IMG/VR virus record: IMGVR_UViG_3300025128_000330
Span: 1 to 24,061 of that record
Length of the DNA stretch: 24,061 bases
Strand: one strand, 5' to 3'
DNA from: a virus
The notes under the pieces are model-generated. The model was not told where the DNA came from, searched no databases, and saw only the letters and a list, made by a program, of their open reading frames with translations. Below, in pieces: positions 139 to 11,812 of this stretch. Both the position numbers and the translations under genes were made by a program. The stretch's first letter is position 1. The number at the start of each line of letters is the position of its first letter.

Positions 139-447
139 CTAGTGTTTTGTTATAGGTTTATCATTGAAAGGAAAAAATACATCTTCGTCTGGTGCTTCGT
201 CTTTAATTTCTTCATATTTATCATAGTATTTACTTAACATATGTTCTACATATGATGTATCTAAAGAGGGTAGTATGCACAGTATCTTTAACATATCTGT
301 TATTATACCTTCTACCTCTGGGGTATCAAGTAAAGACGCATGAATAACAGGATAAAATCTACAAGACACACCATACTCATCATCGTTCTCTACTTTTATT
401 AACAGACAAGCATAGTCCTTTGGTAGGTTTACGTCATCTTCTAACAT
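139..447 (-). CDS. Hypothetical acidic phage protein (102 aa)
   Basis: I do not recognise this family. The 102-aa product is acidic, with a C-terminal segment EEIKDEAPDEDVFFPFNDK, and has no membrane segment or metal motif. The start overlaps the 3' end of the endonuclease I gene by 14 nt in another frame, and a GAGAGG sequence inside that gene can serve as ribosome binding site. The overlap on one side and the 9-nt gap to the DUF3310 gene on the other support a real gene of the leftward replication operon. It could be a small accessory or inhibitor protein, but nothing in the sequence shows this. Confidence 0.7.
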   Translation of the reverse strand: MLEDDVNLPKDYACLLIKVENDDEYGVSCRFYPVIHASLLDTPEVEGIITDMLKILCILPSLDTSYVEHMLSKYYDKYEEIKDEAPDEDVFFPFNDKPITKH

Positions 448-856
448 TTTTATTTTTGCCTCTCGTTTTTTCGTTTATCCATTCTTCAGGTATAAGCTGA
501 TCGGCAAATTTAAAACCATGTTTGTTGCACCAATCTGCGTAAGTAGTCTTGCTACCTTTTCTTAATTTGTTTTTAGAATTAGAAAATACAAATCGTAGAT
601 CTAAATCAGGGTACTGTTCTTTTATCCATAGATGTTTCTGTCTATCTTGAACAGTAAACACCCCTTTTGTTTCTACTATTATATTATTAGGTAACCAAAA
701 ATCAGGCGTATAGTTTCTGTTTTTTTCTGGTTGAACAAAAGATATTTTTTTTATTTCATAACAGTCTAGTATATTTAAAAAAGCTAGTTGTTCACATACT
801 CTTTCTTCTAAACCAGATCTAAAACCATGTGCTATTTTATAGTTGTATGCAACCAT
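434..856 (-). CDS. Endonuclease I, T7 gp3-type Holliday junction resolvase
   Basis: The 140-aa product matches the T7 endonuclease I family over nearly its full length (T7 gp3 is 149 aa). Family landmarks are FRSGLEERV (residues 12-20), YTPDFWLPN (49-57), IVETKG (60-65), DRQKHLWIKEQYPDLDLRF, and FADQLIPEEWI near the C-terminus. By alignment to T7 gp3, catalytic Glu20, Asp55, Glu65 and Lys67 correspond to Glu17, Asp52, Glu62 and Lys64 here, so the PD-(D/E)XK site is intact. In T7 the enzyme resolves branched DNA and helps degrade host DNA. It sits just after the exonuclease gene, as part of a phage recombination and nucleotide-salvage set. The start has only a weak ribosome binding site. Confidence 0.95.
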   Translation of the reverse strand: MVAYNYKIAHGFRSGLEERVCEQLAFLNILDCYEIKKISFVQPEKNRNYTPDFWLPNNIIVETKGVFTVQDRQKHLWIKEQYPDLDLRFVFSNSKNKLRKGSKTTYADWCNKHGFKFADQLIPEEWINEKTRGKNKNVRR

Positions 857-2670: not shown

Positions 2671-2699
2671 GTTATACTTAAAACTACCTGTTTTGTCAA
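2671..2699 (-). promoter_or_regulatory. Sigma70-like promoter for the SSB-like gene
   Basis: Read on the minus strand, a perfect -35 TTGACA (2699-2694) is followed after exactly 17 bp by a -10 TATAAC (2676-2671). The predicted start near 2664 leaves about 30 nt of leader with an AAAGGA ribosome binding site before the ATG at 2634. The -35 box overlaps the last codons and stop of the DNA polymerase gene. This would let the SSB, exonuclease and endonuclease genes be transcribed independently of the long upstream operon. Confidence 0.75.
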
Positions 2700-4762
2700 G
2701 ACATATTTAGCCAATTGCTTCCTGTTTTAGTATCGATAGGTAGAGGTACATCCATGTTTATATTGTAGTATAAATGAATGCGGTTCTTAGTTGAACTAGG
2801 AGATAATATATTCTCTACAAGTTCTTCAACCCTATCTATTTCTTCATTCGGACAATCAAGTAACACACTGTCATGTACCGTATTTACTATTGTAGTTCTT
2901 AATTTATTTTTTTGTAGCTCCTCTCTTAATGCGACCAGACATAATGGAACAATGTCTGCCGTAGCTAGTGCCTGTACAGGATAGTTCTTTATCTTTGTAG
3001 CTCCTGTTGCACCCCCTGTCTTAGTTCTTTTAGCATGGGGAAATGCAAACTGCCTACCTGTTGGCAACGTAATACACTTATTCTTAATAGCCTCTGTCTG
3101 TAAACTTTGATGCCATTTTTTTATACCAGAGTATTTGTCAATGAAGTGTAAGTTGTATGCTTTCTCAGCAGTTGTGCCACTCATGGCCCCATACAGTGGG
3201 GCAAACGTCCTACCCTTGGCCTCTTGTCTAGACGTAGGCTGACCGTTGTTGGTTAAATAGTCTGCTGTATATGTGTGAACATCAAAGCCTGTTTCTATTT
3301 CTTGTATGGCTGTCTGATCGGCAGATAAGAATGCAGCTACCCTAAACTCCAGTTGTGCAAAGTCAAACTCAAACAGTGTGCCACCTTCGCCATATCTAGA
3401 CACGAATGCCTCTTTGACAGGAAACGTATTACCCCGTGGCATATTCTGCATATTAGGTGAGGAGGACGATAGCCTACCCGTAGCTGTACGACACTGATTA
3501 AAGTCAGCGTATAGCATATTACCTATCAGTCTTTTTTTGATGCCCTCTACAAACGCAGATAGGTATGTCTCAACAGCACCAAGACGCTCAACCTTTTCCA
3601 AGAACTCAATAGCATCTGAATGTTTGTCGGCGTTTAAAGATCTAAGTTGTTTAGCTAGAACCCGTAGTCTATTTTTATCTGTGCTAAATCCGTTAGCAGT
3701 TACCCATGTACTATCGGGTGGGAATATCTTTAGACCACCGACATCACCTGTTTCCATATATCTCATACCTGCACCACCGCACTCATGGCAGGTGTGCGCT
3801 CTTGAAAAGGGAGTACCATCTTTTTTTATCTTGTGTACTTTACCTGTTCCGTTACACGTTTTGCACACAGAAGCTACTGTTTTCATTACCTTTTTACAGC
3901 CACTGCGAACAAGCCTCCTAAATTTATCTGTGCTTATCCTGGGTCTAAACGGGCTGTCCAACTGATACATTATAGCGTGGCTCTTTTTATCCCTTGGAGT
4001 GTAAGAGAATATCATAGAGGATACCTGCTCTGGACTACTAAGATTAATAGGCGTATCACCCATGTAACTGTGTACTAATTCCTGTAGCCTACGTATCAGT
4101 TCCTTTTTTTCTATACGATAATTGAACTCAACGTAATCTAGCTTCGCCTCATCTATAGCCAACCCACCATACTCCATCTCAGACAGGCACATACACATTT
4201 TATTACTTAGATTTACTGTAGGCATAAGCGTAGTGTTCTCTAGATCTTTTATCTGAGCCAGATACAAATCTTTTGTAGCACGAATGTCTGCTCTGCCATA
4301 CTCCTCTACAATCTCCCAAGGCATGGCCTCATACCCTATCCCCTTATCCCAATACTCTTTGGTTATGTCAGATTTTTTATTGGCTAAGTCTCGCCTCTCA
4401 CAACAGGCACTAAGAGACATACTCATCCTCTCTCCTCTAGCCAGTATGTATTCACCTATCATAGTATCATATATGTCACCGTCATATGCAATGCCAACTG
4501 ACCATAGCCATTGTAGGTCATACTTTATATTGTGTCCTATAAGGATGTCAGCATTCTGTATTTTATGCTTGACCTCATTTCTTCTATTTGTTCCATGTGA
4601 AACATCACGATGATAAACAGCCACGTAATCTTCTTCGCCCGTGTCTACGTCTAGTATACCAATAGAAACTAAATCATTATTTTTATTGTGAGGCTTGTTA
4701 TCTATTATGTTTTCTTTTCTTGTGACACTATTTTCTATATCTACTACTAATCTTTTAGTCAT
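2696..4762 (-). CDS. Family A DNA polymerase with DnaJ-like zinc insert
   Basis: Numbered from an upstream ATG at 4783 (695 aa), the protein has a 3'-5' exonuclease with Exo I VVDIEN (Asp15, Glu17), Exo II GHNIKYD (Asp89) and Exo III YGRAD (Tyr162, Asp166). A zinc-type insert follows: CKTCNGTG (Cys307, 310) and CHECGGAG (Cys332, 335), like DnaJ CxxCxGxG repeats. The polymerase part has TATGRLSS (433-440), motif A DFAQLEFR (474-481), motif B RQEAKGRTFAPLYG (519-532) and motif C VHDS (636-639). The residue equal to E. coli Pol I 762 is Phe527. I prefer the start at 4762 (MTKRLVVD): AGG lies 4 nt upstream and the ATG overlaps the helicase stop (ATGACTAA), whereas 4783 has no ribosome binding site. 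Exonuclease and polymerase sites both look intact. The DnaJ-like insert points to HMO-2011-type marine phages. Confidence 0.97.
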   Translation of the reverse strand: MTKRLVVDIENSVTRKENIIDNKPHNKNNDLVSIGILDVDTGEEDYVAVYHRDVSHGTNRRNEVKHKIQNADILIGHNIKYDLQWLWSVGIAYDGDIYDTMIGEYILARGERMSMSLSACCERRDLANKKSDITKEYWDKGIGYEAMPWEIVEEYGRADIRATKDLYLAQIKDLENTTLMPTVNLSNKMCMCLSEMEYGGLAIDEAKLDYVEFNYRIEKKELIRRLQELVHSYMGDTPINLSSPEQVSSMIFSYTPRDKKSHAIMYQLDSPFRPRISTDKFRRLVRSGCKKVMKTVASVCKTCNGTGKVHKIKKDGTPFSRAHTCHECGGAGMRYMETGDVGGLKIFPPDSTWVTANGFSTDKNRLRVLAKQLRSLNADKHSDAIEFLEKVERLGAVETYLSAFVEGIKKRLIGNMLYADFNQCRTATGRLSSSSPNMQNMPRGNTFPVKEAFVSRYGEGGTLFEFDFAQLEFRVAAFLSADQTAIQEIETGFDVHTYTADYLTNNGQPTSRQEAKGRTFAPLYGAMSGTTAEKAYNLHFIDKYSGIKKWHQSLQTEAIKNKCITLPTGRQFAFPHAKRTKTGGATGATKIKNYPVQALATADIVPLCLVALREELQKNKLRTTIVNTVHDSVLLDCPNEEIDRVEELVENILSPSSTKNRIHLYYNINMDVPLPIDTKTGSNWLNMS

Positions 4763-5981
4763 CATACCTCGCAACTCTTCCATCTAACATTACATTTATT
4801 TGTCCATGCCAACCGCTAATTTTATTCTTAGCTATGTTGAATACTCTACGGGGATCACCCTCATCTGCTCCTTCTATCATAGCATACTTGCCAATCAGTA
4901 TCATAAGATCAGCTTCAGCTGCCTTACCTGTTCTACTGTTTTCCATCATAGATAGATTAAGATTTACCCTGCCCTCTGCATCTGCTGACAGTTGGGAGTA
5001 CCCAAAGATAGCACACTCATACCTTGTAGCTAGATCCCTAGTGCGTCTGTATATCTCACGTAGCTTTTCATGTTGAGCAGTTATGTGTTTGCTATCAGGC
5101 AATGTTACCTTGTCTAACATATCTATAACAAGTATGTCTGGCCTATGTTCTTTTAGGTGGGCTTCGATACCATCTATACCGTACGACTCCTCTATCCTAT
5201 CTATAAATAAATTATCCTTTTTCCATTCGCCATTGATTAGACTACCGCCACCCCCTAGTAGTTCTTCTTCTGATCTATTTGTAGCCGAACTTAGATACCT
5301 CAGTGCTACCCTGTTGGCAGGTTCCTCATTACAAAGTACGTGTACCTTTGCCCCTTGCTCTATCCAACCATACGGCCCCATCGCAAACGATGCATGGCTA
5401 GAGGTCTTTCCCGTTTCTGGTCTAGAGCCTATCACTATGAAGTGTCCTGCTGATACACCCGACACCCTCTCCGCAAGGGAAGACACATTAAATGCCCATT
5501 TAGTTTGCACGTTCATGGAGTCAATTAATTTTTGTGGATCTAAATCTATACCTGAGAAGGGGGATGCATCCGTAACAAAGCCAGAGGCATAGTCATCTAT
5601 TAGTTTAGATAAACTATCTAGGCTATTCTCATCACCCTCTGTCAGGGCATAGCCTATCTCAGATACTCGCCTACCAATTTCTATACGCCACAGATTATGC
5701 ATAACGTCCTTGGCTACATCGACAGATATATCCTCCGACTGTTTCATCTTGGCAAAGAGAAGTTTATAACTATCCTCTTGTGCTTTTGTTAGTGAGTTAT
5801 TGTTACTGAAGAATAAATTTTCTAATTCAGATAAGTTAATTGAATTATCATACGCATCCTGCGCGGATATAATTGTCTCTACAATTCGTTTAGGTTCTTT
5901 TTCAAAAGCAGTAACGGGTACGTTTCGTCCGATCTGCTCATATATTTCTTTGTTGCATAGTGCCTTGACTAGTTCCAACAT
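4755..5981 (-). CDS. Replicative DNA helicase, DnaB/T7 gp4-like RecA-fold
   Basis: The 408-aa product has a Walker A GSRPETGKT (185-193), the NEEP segment (218-221) that usually supplies the catalytic Glu, a Walker B ILVIDMLD (283-290) and a sensor-like GYSQLS (327-332). The C-terminal MENSRTGKAAEADLM has the arginine-finger and Lys pattern of DnaB-family hexamers. About 170 N-terminal residues are an alpha-helical non-zinc domain, so this is only the helicase half of what T7 makes as one primase-helicase. It should unwind the fork ahead of the polymerase. The start lies 44 nt inside the primase gene, with GAGG 9 nt upstream, and the stop overlaps the polymerase start. These overlaps imply coupled, roughly balanced synthesis of the three replisome proteins. 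Confidence 0.93.
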   Translation of the reverse strand: MLELVKALCNKEIYEQIGRNVPVTAFEKEPKRIVETIISAQDAYDNSINLSELENLFFSNNNSLTKAQEDSYKLLFAKMKQSEDISVDVAKDVMHNLWRIEIGRRVSEIGYALTEGDENSLDSLSKLIDDYASGFVTDASPFSGIDLDPQKLIDSMNVQTKWAFNVSSLAERVSGVSAGHFIVIGSRPETGKTSSHASFAMGPYGWIEQGAKVHVLCNEEPANRVALRYLSSATNRSEEELLGGGGSLINGEWKKDNLFIDRIEESYGIDGIEAHLKEHRPDILVIDMLDKVTLPDSKHITAQHEKLREIYRRTRDLATRYECAIFGYSQLSADAEGRVNLNLSMMENSRTGKAAEADLMILIGKYAMIEGADEGDPRRVFNIAKNKISGWHGQINVMLDGRVARYDD

Positions 5982-6741
5982 TTTGTATTTCCTCTATAGC
6001 CATATCTTTAATGTCTAGTTCTAATGCAACTACCTTACACTTGTCAACGCCAACGAATATTCGCCTAGACATTTGTATAGCTTTATCCGTTGCATCTTTA
6101 TCAAGAGCGATAGTTACATTCTTGTATGTATCCCATATCTTATTTAGATTGTTAGTAGATAACGATGTGCCTAGCAATGGCATAGCATCTGTATCTTTTA
6201 AATATGTTACTGCTTTCCATGCCGATATAATATCCTCTACTATAATTAGATTAGGTTTTGGTGGGGCATCAAACGGTACAACAATCGCACTGTCGATGTC
6301 ACTATATCTTTTCCATTTGGGCTTTCGCCAAACGTCCAACGCCCTACCAATAGCGTCCACATTTTCGCCATATTTCTGGATCATAAACGCTACCCGTCTT
6401 TCTAATGCATCATATAGAACGGGGATACCTATATTGTTTATACAATAAGTGTCTAGAAAATCGCTACAAATATTAGAATAACCCAGACGATTGACATCAG
6501 TGGTTCTGACATTTTGTGTTCCCTTCATTTTGTTTCGTTGTTGTTGATAATTAAATCTAATGTCTTCAAGTGACATACTTGAATTGTGTTTTACACCGCT
6601 ATAGTTACATGATGCAGAGTAGCAATTCCATTTAATGGTACTGCCTTCTCTACTTAAAGTAAAGGTATTGTGACGATGGCACTTGGGGCAACTACCCCTT
6701 TTGCTTTCGCCAGATCGTATGTCATCGAAGTCAATATTCAT
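5938..6741 (-). CDS. Stand-alone zinc-binding TOPRIM DNA primase
   Basis: The 267-aa protein is the primase half of a T7 gp4-like system encoded as its own gene. The N-terminus has a zinc-binding domain with Cys18, Cys21, Cys40 and Cys45 (CPKC and the CYSASC segment), used by such primases to recognise template. The TOPRIM domain shows LIIVEDIISAWKA with the conserved Glu169, and IALDKDATD with the paired aspartates Asp214 and Asp216. It should make RNA primers for the family A polymerase together with the helicase encoded next. The ATG overlaps the stop of the SleB-type gene (ATGA), with no clear ribosome binding site of its own, so translation is probably coupled. Confidence in primase is high. 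Confidence 0.9.
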   Translation of the reverse strand: MNIDFDDIRSGESKRGSCPKCHRHNTFTLSREGSTIKWNCYSASCNYSGVKHNSSMSLEDIRFNYQQQRNKMKGTQNVRTTDVNRLGYSNICSDFLDTYCINNIGIPVLYDALERRVAFMIQKYGENVDAIGRALDVWRKPKWKRYSDIDSAIVVPFDAPPKPNLIIVEDIISAWKAVTYLKDTDAMPLLGTSLSTNNLNKIWDTYKNVTIALDKDATDKAIQMSRRIFVGVDKCKVVALELDIKDMAIEEIQNVGTSQGTMQQRNI

Positions 6742-7172
6742 TTGTAAAATATATGATCCTCTATCTGAATAAGATACTGCCTATTCCATTGGGGATCTAC
6801 ATTAATAGAGTGATAAAATACTGCCCCGTCAAGTAAAGGAATAGACAGACCATACGTATAGTGAACCTCCTCTGCTATACGTATAGCTTTATTCCAGGAT
6901 CTTTTATCTTTTGGTACATCTGATAAGCCATCACAGTAGAATGAAAATTGGCAACGATGCTTCACTGGATAGTTTTGTTTCCAGCTATACGTAGGCCCCT
7001 CTTTTACCACACCGCACACAGTGTTAGGCCAACGGCTATCATGGGTACGGTTCAAGACCACTTGTGCGACAGCCATCTGACCTACGGTAGGTTGATCCCT
7101 AGCCTCAAAGTATATTGCTTGTGCCAGACAGGTTATGGATGCACCGAATGCTAGGACTGTAGCTTCAAGCAT
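6738..7172 (-). CDS. SleB/CwlJ-type cell-wall hydrolase (candidate endolysin)
   Basis: The 144-aa protein matches the Hydrolase_2 (SleB/CwlJ) family: AQAIYFEARDQPTVGQMAVA (17-36) with the catalytic-type Glu23, VVLNR, the CGVV segment near residue 53, CQFSFYCDG (74-82) and a late AVFYH. Family members cleave peptidoglycan glycan strands. In marine phages this type of enzyme commonly serves as endolysin. The N-terminus, MLEATVLAFGASITCLAQAI, is hydrophobic and could act as a signal or signal-arrest segment. The gene lies inside the replication block, overlapping MazG-like (TAATG) and primase (ATGA) genes, not next to a holin or tail gene. Lysis is therefore the likely role, but its transcription with early genes is odd. 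Confidence 0.87.
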   Translation of the reverse strand: MLEATVLAFGASITCLAQAIYFEARDQPTVGQMAVAQVVLNRTHDSRWPNTVCGVVKEGPTYSWKQNYPVKHRCQFSFYCDGLSDVPKDKRSWNKAIRIAEEVHYTYGLSIPLLDGAVFYHSINVDPQWNRQYLIQIEDHIFYK

Positions 7173-7495
7173 TACCTGTTATCTCCGCTTCCACCTATCT
7201 TACCGCGATCCATGCGAGAGTTTAACTTATCTAAATTAATTTCTACAGCCTCAGTTAGATCTATATCAAGATCGTCAGCAACACGGGCTAGATACCAAAG
7301 AACATCACCTATTTCTTTTTTAAGATCAGTCTTTCGTACCATACTTATTTTCCCGTTATCATCACGGTATATTTTTTTAATCTGGTTCATTAGTTCGCCC
7401 ACTTCGCCAGATAAACCTAGTGAGGGGTAAATGATATCGTCACTGTAGATCTTGGTCTTACGGGTTTCGATTTGGTATTTGTTAAAGTCTAACAT
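7172..7495 (-). CDS. MazG-like nucleotide pyrophosphohydrolase
   Basis: The 107-aa protein has the single-domain MazG-like layout. LGLSGEVGELMNQIKK holds the first metal-binding pair Glu31 and Glu34, and KKEIGDVLWYLA holds Glu61 and Asp64, matching the ExxE...ExxD pattern. MazG-fold enzymes hydrolyse nucleoside triphosphates to monophosphate and pyrophosphate; phage copies may adjust nucleotide pools or alarmone-type signals during infection. An ideal ribosome binding site CAGGAG overlaps the stop of the Mom-like gene, 5-6 nt before the ATG. The stop overlaps the next start (TAATG). Substrate cannot be read from the sequence. Confidence 0.9.
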   Translation of the reverse strand: MLDFNKYQIETRKTKIYSDDIIYPSLGLSGEVGELMNQIKKIYRDDNGKISMVRKTDLKKEIGDVLWYLARVADDLDIDLTEAVEINLDKLNSRMDRGKIGGSGDNR

Positions 7496-7497
7496 TT

Positions 7498-8103
7498 TTA
7501 CTCCTGATAAAGTTTTGGATAAGTGTCTTCAATAGTATATCGAAGCGCATTACGCAACGTCTTTTTATCTTTCTTTGATCCGATAAAATATACGTAGCGG
7601 TGTTTCGCTGATCTATTAATTCTGTTTTGTCTATCGCCTAGATGATGACGCGAGTGCCTACCATCTTTACCTGCTATATCTGTACGGGCTTTTGTTGTGC
7701 CAGTAAATAGGAAGTTACAGGCTTGATAAATAATACCAGCATGGTCTTGAGCAGTGTCAGCATAAGACACTACAACTCTAGGTTTAGGTAATAGTTTTAG
7801 GGATCGAGACACCAAGAACGATGCCTGATTAGGTAGGTTATCTTTTAAAACTAATCTGTTTAATTCAATTACGTTATGCTTATGTTCCTCACCGCATATG
7901 CCTTTACACAAAGAAGGCGATGCTGGTGTGCCATAAGATACCATGCCTACCATTTCATCATAATGATACAAGCCATACGCGAAGCTAATGCTAGGCATTC
8001 TTTTCGCATAATGGATATTGAGTATCCAGTTTTTTGTTGCAGAGTATGGGATCTGAACCACCTCATATTCGCTCTGCATTTGGTTTGACCAACCAACAAA
8101 CAT
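7498..8103 (-). CDS. Mom-family DNA adenine modification enzyme
   Basis: The 201-aa protein resembles the phage Mu Mom family (GNAT-like fold), which converts adenine in DNA to N6-carbamoylmethyladenine and blocks many restriction enzymes. Landmarks are NIHYAKRMPS (29-38), IELNRLVL (79-86), NQASFLVSRSLKLL (92-105), VVSYADTAQDHAGIIYQA (111-128), NFLFTG (130-135) and KHRYVYF (167-173). The His-Tyr after the N-terminal strand, the SYAD Asp116 and the GIIYQAxNFxxTG block are the conserved core as I know it. A very strong AGGAGG sits 4 nt before the ATG. There is no Com-like regulator nearby, unlike in Mu. The gene is in the early/replication block, so progeny DNA could be modified as it is made. 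Activity and modified base are inference. Confidence 0.8.
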   Translation of the reverse strand: MFVGWSNQMQSEYEVVQIPYSATKNWILNIHYAKRMPSISFAYGLYHYDEMVGMVSYGTPASPSLCKGICGEEHKHNVIELNRLVLKDNLPNQASFLVSRSLKLLPKPRVVVSYADTAQDHAGIIYQACNFLFTGTTKARTDIAGKDGRHSRHHLGDRQNRINRSAKHRYVYFIGSKKDKKTLRNALRYTIEDTYPKLYQE

Positions 8104-8160: not shown

Positions 8161-8343
8161 TTATGCCACGAAGCGGTGGTCTTGGATAACCCCTACTACA
8201 TATCCTTTAGGATAAGTACGAAGTATACTATCGTATGCTTTACGGGGGGTTGTCTCATAAGATGGTAGCACTTCTACAGTACCGCCATATTGTTTTTTAT
8301 AAACTACTTTAAAAGTAGGAAAACTTTTTAGTTTTATACGCAT
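8161..8343 (-). CDS. Hypothetical small basic protein (60 aa)
   Basis: I do not recognise this protein. It is basic and beta-rich, beginning MRIKLKSFPTFKVVYKKQYG and ending VVGVIQDHRFVA, with no cysteines or membrane segment. A strong ribosome binding site (AAGTAAGGA) lies 9 nt before the ATG. A good sigma70 promoter starts transcription about 35 nt upstream. Having its own promoter and translation signal makes it a real gene. It is first in a transcript that continues into the Mom-like gene, so it may be expressed together with that enzyme. The function is unknown. Confidence 0.65.
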   Translation of the reverse strand: MRIKLKSFPTFKVVYKKQYGGTVEVLPSYETTPRKAYDSILRTYPKGYVVGVIQDHRFVA

Positions 8344-8383: not shown

Positions 8384-8412
8384 GTTATATCACAATATTG
8401 GTTGAAAGTCAA
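8384..8412 (-). promoter_or_regulatory. Sigma70-like promoter upstream of the 60-aa gene and Mom-like operon
   Basis: On the minus strand, -35 TTGACT (8412-8407) and -10 TATAAC (8389-8384) are separated by exactly 17 bp. The site lies in the short gap between the 77-aa and 60-aa genes. The -10 hexamer and spacer length match those of the promoters at 2671-2699 and 12592-12620, which supports a shared recognition by host RNA polymerase. It would drive the 60-aa gene, the Mom-like, MazG-like and SleB genes and possibly the replisome genes. Confidence 0.7.
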
Positions 8413-10254: not shown

Positions 10255-10368
10255 ACATTCACTAATTGGCTGGGGGTAAAATATATATAAAAAACTATTT
10301 GCTATATATAATAATATGTGATATTAAAATCTAATTACTTTTAAACATATCTACTGGAGCAATACAAA

Positions 10369-11025
10369 ATGCCAAGAGATCCTAATCAAATCCATATTTC
10401 AAAAATGACTGGTAAATTAGATAGTTTACGGGCCATCAATACGAACACGGTCACAAATGAATTCTGCATCGCACAATATAATAGTGGTAAAGATAACGTA
10501 ATCTGTACTAGATGTTATTCACATGAAAGTTTAGACGGTTACCGTAAAAATATGCAACCGGCATTACAAGACAACAGTAATCTTTTATCTAGTTCTATTT
10601 TAGATGATGATAGATTACCTTTTTTACTAGACGCATATTTAAGAATTGACGGCCACGGCGAACTAATAAACGATACACATCTAATTAATATATATAACTT
10701 GGCCTTAAAAAATCCCCACTGTAAAATTGCAATATGGACTAAGCGAATACCTATTGTTAGATCCGTTGCCAAGAAAATGACAACGCCCGATAATATTATT
10801 TTGATTTATTCCAACCCCATTATTAATAAAGTAAAATATCAAAAAGATATTCCAGAATATTTTCACAAAGTATTTAATAATGTATGGAGTGATCATAAAA
10901 TAGAAGAACAAAATTGCACGGGCCAGCAGTGCAAAACGTGCATGGTATGTTATAATTTTGAAACGTCTGATATTATTATTGAGGCAGTAAAAAAGAACGG
11001 AAAAACAAGGAAGACAAAACATTAG
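10369..11025 (+). CDS. GP88-like cysteine-rich phage protein
   Basis: The 218-aa protein resembles the phage family named gene product 88 (GP88). It shows the N-terminal cysteine set Cys33, Cys46 and Cys49 in ICTRCYSHESLDGYRKN, the LRIDGHGELIND segment where relatives have a 'R.H.sGDf' strand, AIWTKR (121-126), and the C-terminal cluster Cys183-x4-Cys188-x2-Cys191-x2-Cys194. The two cysteine sets suggest bound metal or Fe-S, but no canonical radical-SAM CxxxCxxC is present and the family's function is unknown. GGAG lies 9 nt before the ATG. It is transcribed alone, against the genes on both sides, from its own promoter. Monocistronic placement between early operons suggests an early accessory role. 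Confidence 0.65.
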   Translation: MPRDPNQIHISKMTGKLDSLRAINTNTVTNEFCIAQYNSGKDNVICTRCYSHESLDGYRKNMQPALQDNSNLLSSSILDDDRLPFLLDAYLRIDGHGELINDTHLINIYNLALKNPHCKIAIWTKRIPIVRSVAKKMTTPDNIILIYSNPIINKVKYQKDIPEYFHKVFNNVWSDHKIEEQNCTGQQCKTCMVCYNFETSDIIIEAVKKNGKTRKTKH

Positions 11026-11493: not shown

Positions 11494-11511
11494 GGGGGGA
11501 ATAAACCCCCC
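11494..11511 (-). terminator. Intergenic G6/C6 hairpin between the 82-aa and 70-aa genes
   Basis: On the minus strand the sequence is GGGGGG-TTTATT-CCCCCC followed by TTCTTTTTC, located just after the stop of the 82-aa gene and 25 nt before the start of the 70-aa gene. The perfect six-pair G-C stem with a 6-nt loop is terminator-like, but the T tract is interrupted and a gene follows directly. It may be a partial terminator/attenuator or an mRNA-stabilising or processing site. The same hairpin recurs at 11787-11804. Confidence 0.6.
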
Positions 11512-11766: not shown

Positions 11767-11786
11767 GTTTGTATCTCCAATAAAGT

Positions 11787-11804
11787 GGGGGGAATAAACC
11801 CCCC
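11787..11804 (-). terminator. Intergenic G6/C6 hairpin between the 94-aa and 82-aa genes
   Basis: On the minus strand this is GGGGGG-TTTATT-CCCCCC, identical in stem and loop to the copy at 11494-11511. It begins 8 nt after the stop of the 94-aa gene and ends 20 nt before the start of the 82-aa gene. The following sequence ACTTTATTGGAG has only a short T run and then the ribosome binding site. It is better viewed as an attenuator, stabiliser or processing hairpin than as a full terminator. Confidence 0.55.
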
Positions 11805-11812
11805 ATTAAAGT

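Follow-up and report, generated by a model that had tools for sequence, protein, structure and literature searches.

The window, a 24-kb virus fragment (24,061 nucleotides in full), carries a mom gene that quite likely encodes an active Mom-type enzyme of an HMO-2011-type marine podovirus, where it would serve as an early anti-restriction cassette. In the mechanism that we propose, mom would be transcribed early by host RNA polymerase together with the replication genes, and its product would bind newly made double-stranded phage DNA, an action during replication that is suggested by gene position only. At some sites, the enzyme would add a small group to adenine, after which host restriction enzymes would cut progeny DNA poorly; what is proposed here for the group, the target motif and the timing derives from Mu or from where the gene lies. 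Within the early operon, mom would be a modification cassette that can be exchanged for others. The most probable function of the protein is protection of phage DNA from the restriction enzymes of bacteria.

The protein is a true member of the Mom family, which it matches far beyond chance:

7498-8103, minus strand: mom gene, 201 aa (Pfam PF25680, E 8.9e-35; PHROG 1384, E 2.8e-56; PDB 8bv8 by phmmer, 1.3e-11)

The reading frame starts with ATG, and its translation contains HY (residues 31-32), ELNR (80-83), SYAD (113-116), GIIYQACNFLFTG (123-135) and KHRYVYF (167-173), including every family core motif claimed in a preliminary description of this DNA. The profile search proposed there as a check gave 120.6 bits against PF25680 (profile positions 2-194 of 202), for which the curated cut-off is 27.1 bits. 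PHROG 1384 is the family 'Mom-like DNA modification protein', and phmmer with the window protein as query found Mu Mom (8bv8) in the PDB, while NCBIfam had no matching model.

Gene order supports the earlier claim that mom lies inside a replication operon with a promoter upstream. The minus strand reads in the order 60-aa gene, mom, mazG, SleB hydrolase, primase, helicase, polymerase and then three genes:

8384-8412, minus strand: TTGACT-17-TATAAC, a promoter of sigma-70 type ahead of the 60-aa gene and mom (both boxes in 8/8 clade members)
8161-8343, minus strand: conserved 60-aa gene between promoter and mom, also present in the mom-less sisters L219 and L224
8108-8113, minus strand: AGGAGG Shine-Dalgarno sequence of mom, 4 nt ahead of the ATG (read directly from the sequence)
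7172-7495, minus strand: MazG-type nucleotide pyrophosphohydrolase (Pfam MazG, 5.6e-10; PHROG 229, 4.9e-33)
6738-7172, minus strand: SleB-type cell wall hydrolase of the same operon (Pfam Hydrolase_2, 3.4e-20)
5938-6741, minus strand: DNA primase, TOPRIM (PHROG 47 DNA primase, 4.2e-15)
4755-5981, minus strand: DnaB-type helicase (TIGR00665, 4.6e-12)
2696-4783, minus strand: DNA polymerase A with two CXXCXGXG motifs (307, 332), 44% identical to the HMO-2011 DNA polymerase
1762-2634, 887-1762 and 434-856, minus strand: three genes after the polymerase whose homologues are ordered alike in HMO-2011, with an endonuclease I-like gene (434-856) at the end

The two polymerase motifs read CKTCNGTG (at 307) and CHECGGAG (at 332), and such a pair of CXXCXGXG motifs is the defining hallmark of HMO-2011-type phages (PMC9038755). 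HMO-2011, the CRP series and HTVC033P share with the window this polymerase with a DnaJ-type CXXCXGXG insert, the module order and a portal protein up to 66% identical (64.8-66.3% for HMO-2011 and CRP-345). Judged from these shared features, the source phage is an HMO-2011-type marine podovirus. A tyrosine integrase is present in the phages HMO-2011 and CRP-212, whereas none was found in the window or in the 55-kb sister contig G002. Elsewhere in the window, a gene at 10369-11025 that weakly matches Pfam GP88 lies on the plus strand amid the minus-strand early genes, and two near-identical minus-strand terminator-like hairpins (GGGGGGTTTATTCCCCCC) lie about 290 bases apart at 11494-11511 and 11786-11805.

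Both expression signals named in the preliminary description, a strong AGGAGG and a promoter at 8384-8412, are present and conserved. The sequence upstream of mom reads ATATAGGAGGTGTT-ATG, and AGGAGG or GGAG is kept before mom in seven sister contigs; a distance of only 4 nt between AGGAGG and ATG is a point against the best explanation. The complement of 8384-8412 reads TTGACT, 17 nt and TATAAC; the seven sister contigs keep the host-type boxes as TTGAC and TTGTGATATA (CTGTGATATA in one contig), while most of the spacer varies. A default sigma-70 scan of the window did not call this site, since its pattern requires T as the final base of the -10 box. The scan found 31 promoter-like sites in the window versus 46 in shuffled sequence, so a single promoter match carries little weight and conservation was relied on instead. 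Further copies of the mom promoter amounted to ten weak matches in the window against about four expected, the mom-proximal one alone being exact, and a phage-wide set of such promoters is not claimed. Promoter and operon position make early transcription of mom by the RNA polymerase of the host probable.

The claim that no Com-like gene is nearby also held, as no small ORF of the Cys4 type was found anywhere near mom; the 60-aa gene has no cysteines and is therefore not Com. Nor was a Mu-like leader hairpin found, the leaders of four sisters folding no better than shuffles (z -1.2 to 0.1). In neither respect does the window resemble the Mu-type com-mom operon, which has a Com zinc-finger gene beside mom and a leader hairpin that depends on Com. 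Phage Mu expresses mom late, controlled by C, Dam/OxyR and Com, whereas the window gene sits in a replication operon behind a sigma-70-type promoter. In Mu, Mom is held back until late because its untimely or high-level expression kills the cell (PMC4461284). A phage that kills its host in any case could do without this brake, a difference that would account for the missing Com and for the apparent lack of late control.

Lytic phages with Com-less Mom genes have been described before, and the window protein joins a known family. A Mom-like gene was reported in phage Riggi in 2013, where C and Com were not found (PMC3853051), and with Mom relatives in 318 phage records, independence from Com is not special. 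Bacillus phage Riggi, Listeria phages A511 and LP-114 and Proteus phage PM87 have Mom-family genes, 45-48% identical, that likewise lack Mu-type control. Their genes lie among small hypothetical genes or beside terminase, unlike the window gene, which is followed at once by the mazG-hydrolase-primase-helicase-polymerase series. In jumbo phages, Mom-endonuclease fusions are known in which the Mom domain is used in DNA protection (PMC7824862), whereas the window gene stands alone and relatives in the CRP-212 group are fused to MazG. Fourteen of the 15 HMO-2011-type phages examined have no mom, and the exception, CRP-212, has one from a different Mom branch.

The close association of mom and mazG raises the possibility that the two work as one unit, for example if MazG provided, or disposed of, a nucleotide connected with the modification, a reading that we consider unlikely. 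In the window, the start codon of mazG is 2 nt past the stop codon of mom, and in roseophage CRP-212 (MZ892988) gp15, annotated as MazG only, is the C-terminal part of a single 310-aa Mom-MazG protein (L081:10342-11274) with key residues kept (Mom 5.2e-20, MazG 4.5e-9). The fusion starts at 10342, and the annotated start of gp15 (10525) removes part of the Mom domain. This unannotated fusion in a cultured phage, encoded also by ten related environmental contigs, is an addition of the present analysis. The Mom domains of the CRP-212 branch and the window are only about 30% identical (the MazG parts 51%), and the pairing may therefore have arisen twice. However, mazG occurs without mom in the sisters L219 and L224 and in the relatives L116-L124, the mazG of the mom-less CRP-3 is 88% identical to that of CRP-212, and in several, indeed many, contigs with mom, mazG was missing from the neighbourhood or not found. 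The link between Mom and MazG is suggestive, not general. In another lineage, a PAPS-reductase-like gene (PHROG 424; L017:6750-7505) precedes mom at a short distance.

The reading of mom as an anti-restriction gene gains from what sister phages carry at or close to its place in the operon:

L222:461-1399, L223:734-1672 and L224:4181-5119: replication-operon gene for a C5-cytosine DNA methyltransferase (PF00145)
L218:570-1091: 173-aa DPPY-type DNA methyltransferase (PHROG 11619) between SleB hydrolase and primase
L219:2799-3572: 80-aa ORF and GIY-YIG endonuclease at the exact place of mom

In L010 (same contig as L220), mom is immediately ahead of primase, and L222, L223 and L224 have the C5-cytosine methyltransferase (PF00145, 4.4e-42) in its place; the helicases of L222 and L223, the two measured, are about 80% identical to that of the window and 90% to that of L010. 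L218, whose helicase is 88% identical to the window's, has the second methyltransferase (PHROG 11619, 5.7e-33), and the methyltransferases of sister phages adjoin primase on its upstream side. L219 (helicase 95%) keeps the leader and AGGAGG of the window ahead of its own replacement. No contig had both mom and a PF00145 gene (0/39 in these lineages, many of the contigs being fragments). This methyltransferase swap, for which the evidence comes from four contigs of two lineages, is new here; it supports a putative anti-restriction role and is the best comparative evidence in this analysis for the presumed part of Mom in DNA protection, although Mom and methyltransferase could both be neutral accessory genes. 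Tentatively, and with rather low probability, the HMO-2011-type replication operon may have a dedicated early 'modification position' filled by Mom or DNA methyltransferases, where in some lineages a Mom-MazG unit would tie adenine modification to nucleotide supply during replication.

The predicted structure bears on whether the protein is instead a Mom-fold GNAT with a different transferred group (e.g. acetyl) or another substrate (RNA, protein), an alternative to which we give only a slim chance. Other GNATs do share the fold, and the Mom domain is used in several settings, as is indicated by its fusion to a GIY-YIG-like endonuclease part in L057 and L058 and by its weak matches to homing endonuclease families. 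In these two contigs, the Mom domain is followed in frame by the GIY-YIG-like homing endonuclease part within a 461-aa open frame. The structure comparison with Mu Mom proposed earlier was done with an AlphaFold (AF2) model built from 29 relatives (mean pLDDT 85.6), for which Foldseek returned 8bv8 as best match (E 6.7e-12). The DALI-like Z of the model against 8bv8 is 20.3 (VIA), 8 units above all other GNATs (next chain 12.5), and the aligned proteins are about 25% identical. Placement in another GNAT family was not seen and the Mom active site is kept. The structure 8bv8 is the phage Mu Mom crystal structure, 'inactive mutant S124A', and in the phmmer alignment S95 of the window protein faces the alanine of this mutant chain; deduced from this alignment, S95 would be the counterpart of the Mu serine mutated in S124A. 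All 29 sequences have H31, Y32, R83, S95, S113, D116, Y126, N130, K167 and H168, and every Mu active-site position that could be mapped is invariant among relatives. Beyond the serine, we take the counterparts of H31, Y32, R83, D116 and Y126 to be residues needed for Mu Mom activity. The retention of these Mu-specific residues, including the essential serine, together with the DNA methyltransferases in or near the mom position of sisters, argues against a different group or substrate. With respect to a Mom-type enzyme, the window protein and Mu Mom (PF25680) share fold, active-site residues and significant sequence similarity, and Mu Mom adds a methylcarbamoyl-type group on N6 of adenine.

Relatives of the window Mom were found at 63 loci in IMG/VR and indicate how the gene has travelled. 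L001, L002, L005, L007, L016, L021, L022 and others belong to the window's clade, in which the whole operon is alike. In L003, L004, L008, L009, L011-L015, L017-L020, L023 and L025, Mom is 77-88% identical to that of the window, whereas the helicase (where present) is only 31-39% and polA 32-43% identical. Slow evolution does not explain the high Mom identity, since inside the clade Mom is the faster protein (window-L002 dN 0.025 for mom versus 0.006 for helicase). The Mom of L010/L024 is joined with that of L017 (100/99), whereas their helicase is sister to the window's clade, and the helicase-based grouping of their Mom with that clade was rejected (p-AU 0.016). The contrast in identities and the conflict between trees indicate that Mom moved between lineages; on this evidence Mom has been exchanged among HMO-2011-type lineages and inserted at differing points of the same operon, which is a further addition of this analysis. 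A recent swap by recombination within the window's own clade was not upheld, as the clade A Mom forms a single group in the tree (99/98), although in some pairs mom, unlike helicase, has saturated synonymous sites. Travel together with an upstream Pyr_excise-type gene was dropped as an explanation, that gene being common in mom-less HMO-2011-type phages.

The gene is accessory and patchy, absent from the 80 contigs with the closest polymerase relatives, most of which are fragments, and found in one of 15 cultured or complete HMO-2011-type genomes, as a decaying or neutral passenger without present function might be; this is extremely improbable given dN/dS values of 0.03-0.19 in ten close pairs, by which mom is under purifying selection and retained, the intact set of active-site residues, the conserved promoter and ribosome-binding site, and repeated transfer with retention.

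The extent of protection appears smaller than was first proposed. The target motif of Mu Mom is SASNY, and if it applied here about 6% of window adenines would be targets, which does not fit the genome-wide adenine modification suggested in the preliminary description. Mean log2 observed/expected values of 6-bp palindromes are about -2.1 in CRP-212, -2.2 in G002 and -1.8 in G015, which bear Mom, and -2.5 in CRP-3, -1.8 in CRP-207 and -1.9 in CRP-235, which do not; in this small comparison of three against three genomes, avoidance is equally strong with and without Mom. Restriction pressure thus looks real, and its unrelaxed footprint in Mom-bearing genomes argues against a complete or long-standing shield, from which relief of palindrome avoidance would be expected. 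An anti-restriction role is favoured by the methyltransferases at or near the same operon position in sisters; the broad shield first envisaged finds no support in palindrome avoidance. HMO-2011-type phages rank among the dominant phages of the sea, and the trading of Mom, with methyltransferases at the same operon position in sisters, suggests that restriction exerts real pressure on them. The host strain FZCC0040 is common to CRP-212, with its Mom-MazG protein, and to the Mom-less CRP-3, CRP-207 and CRP-235, a ready comparison that bears on how Mom acts without the Mu control circuit. Depletion of GANTC, together with very strong 6-bp palindrome avoidance, was observed in all six HMO-2011-type genomes tested (L240-L245, L081, L229-L239).
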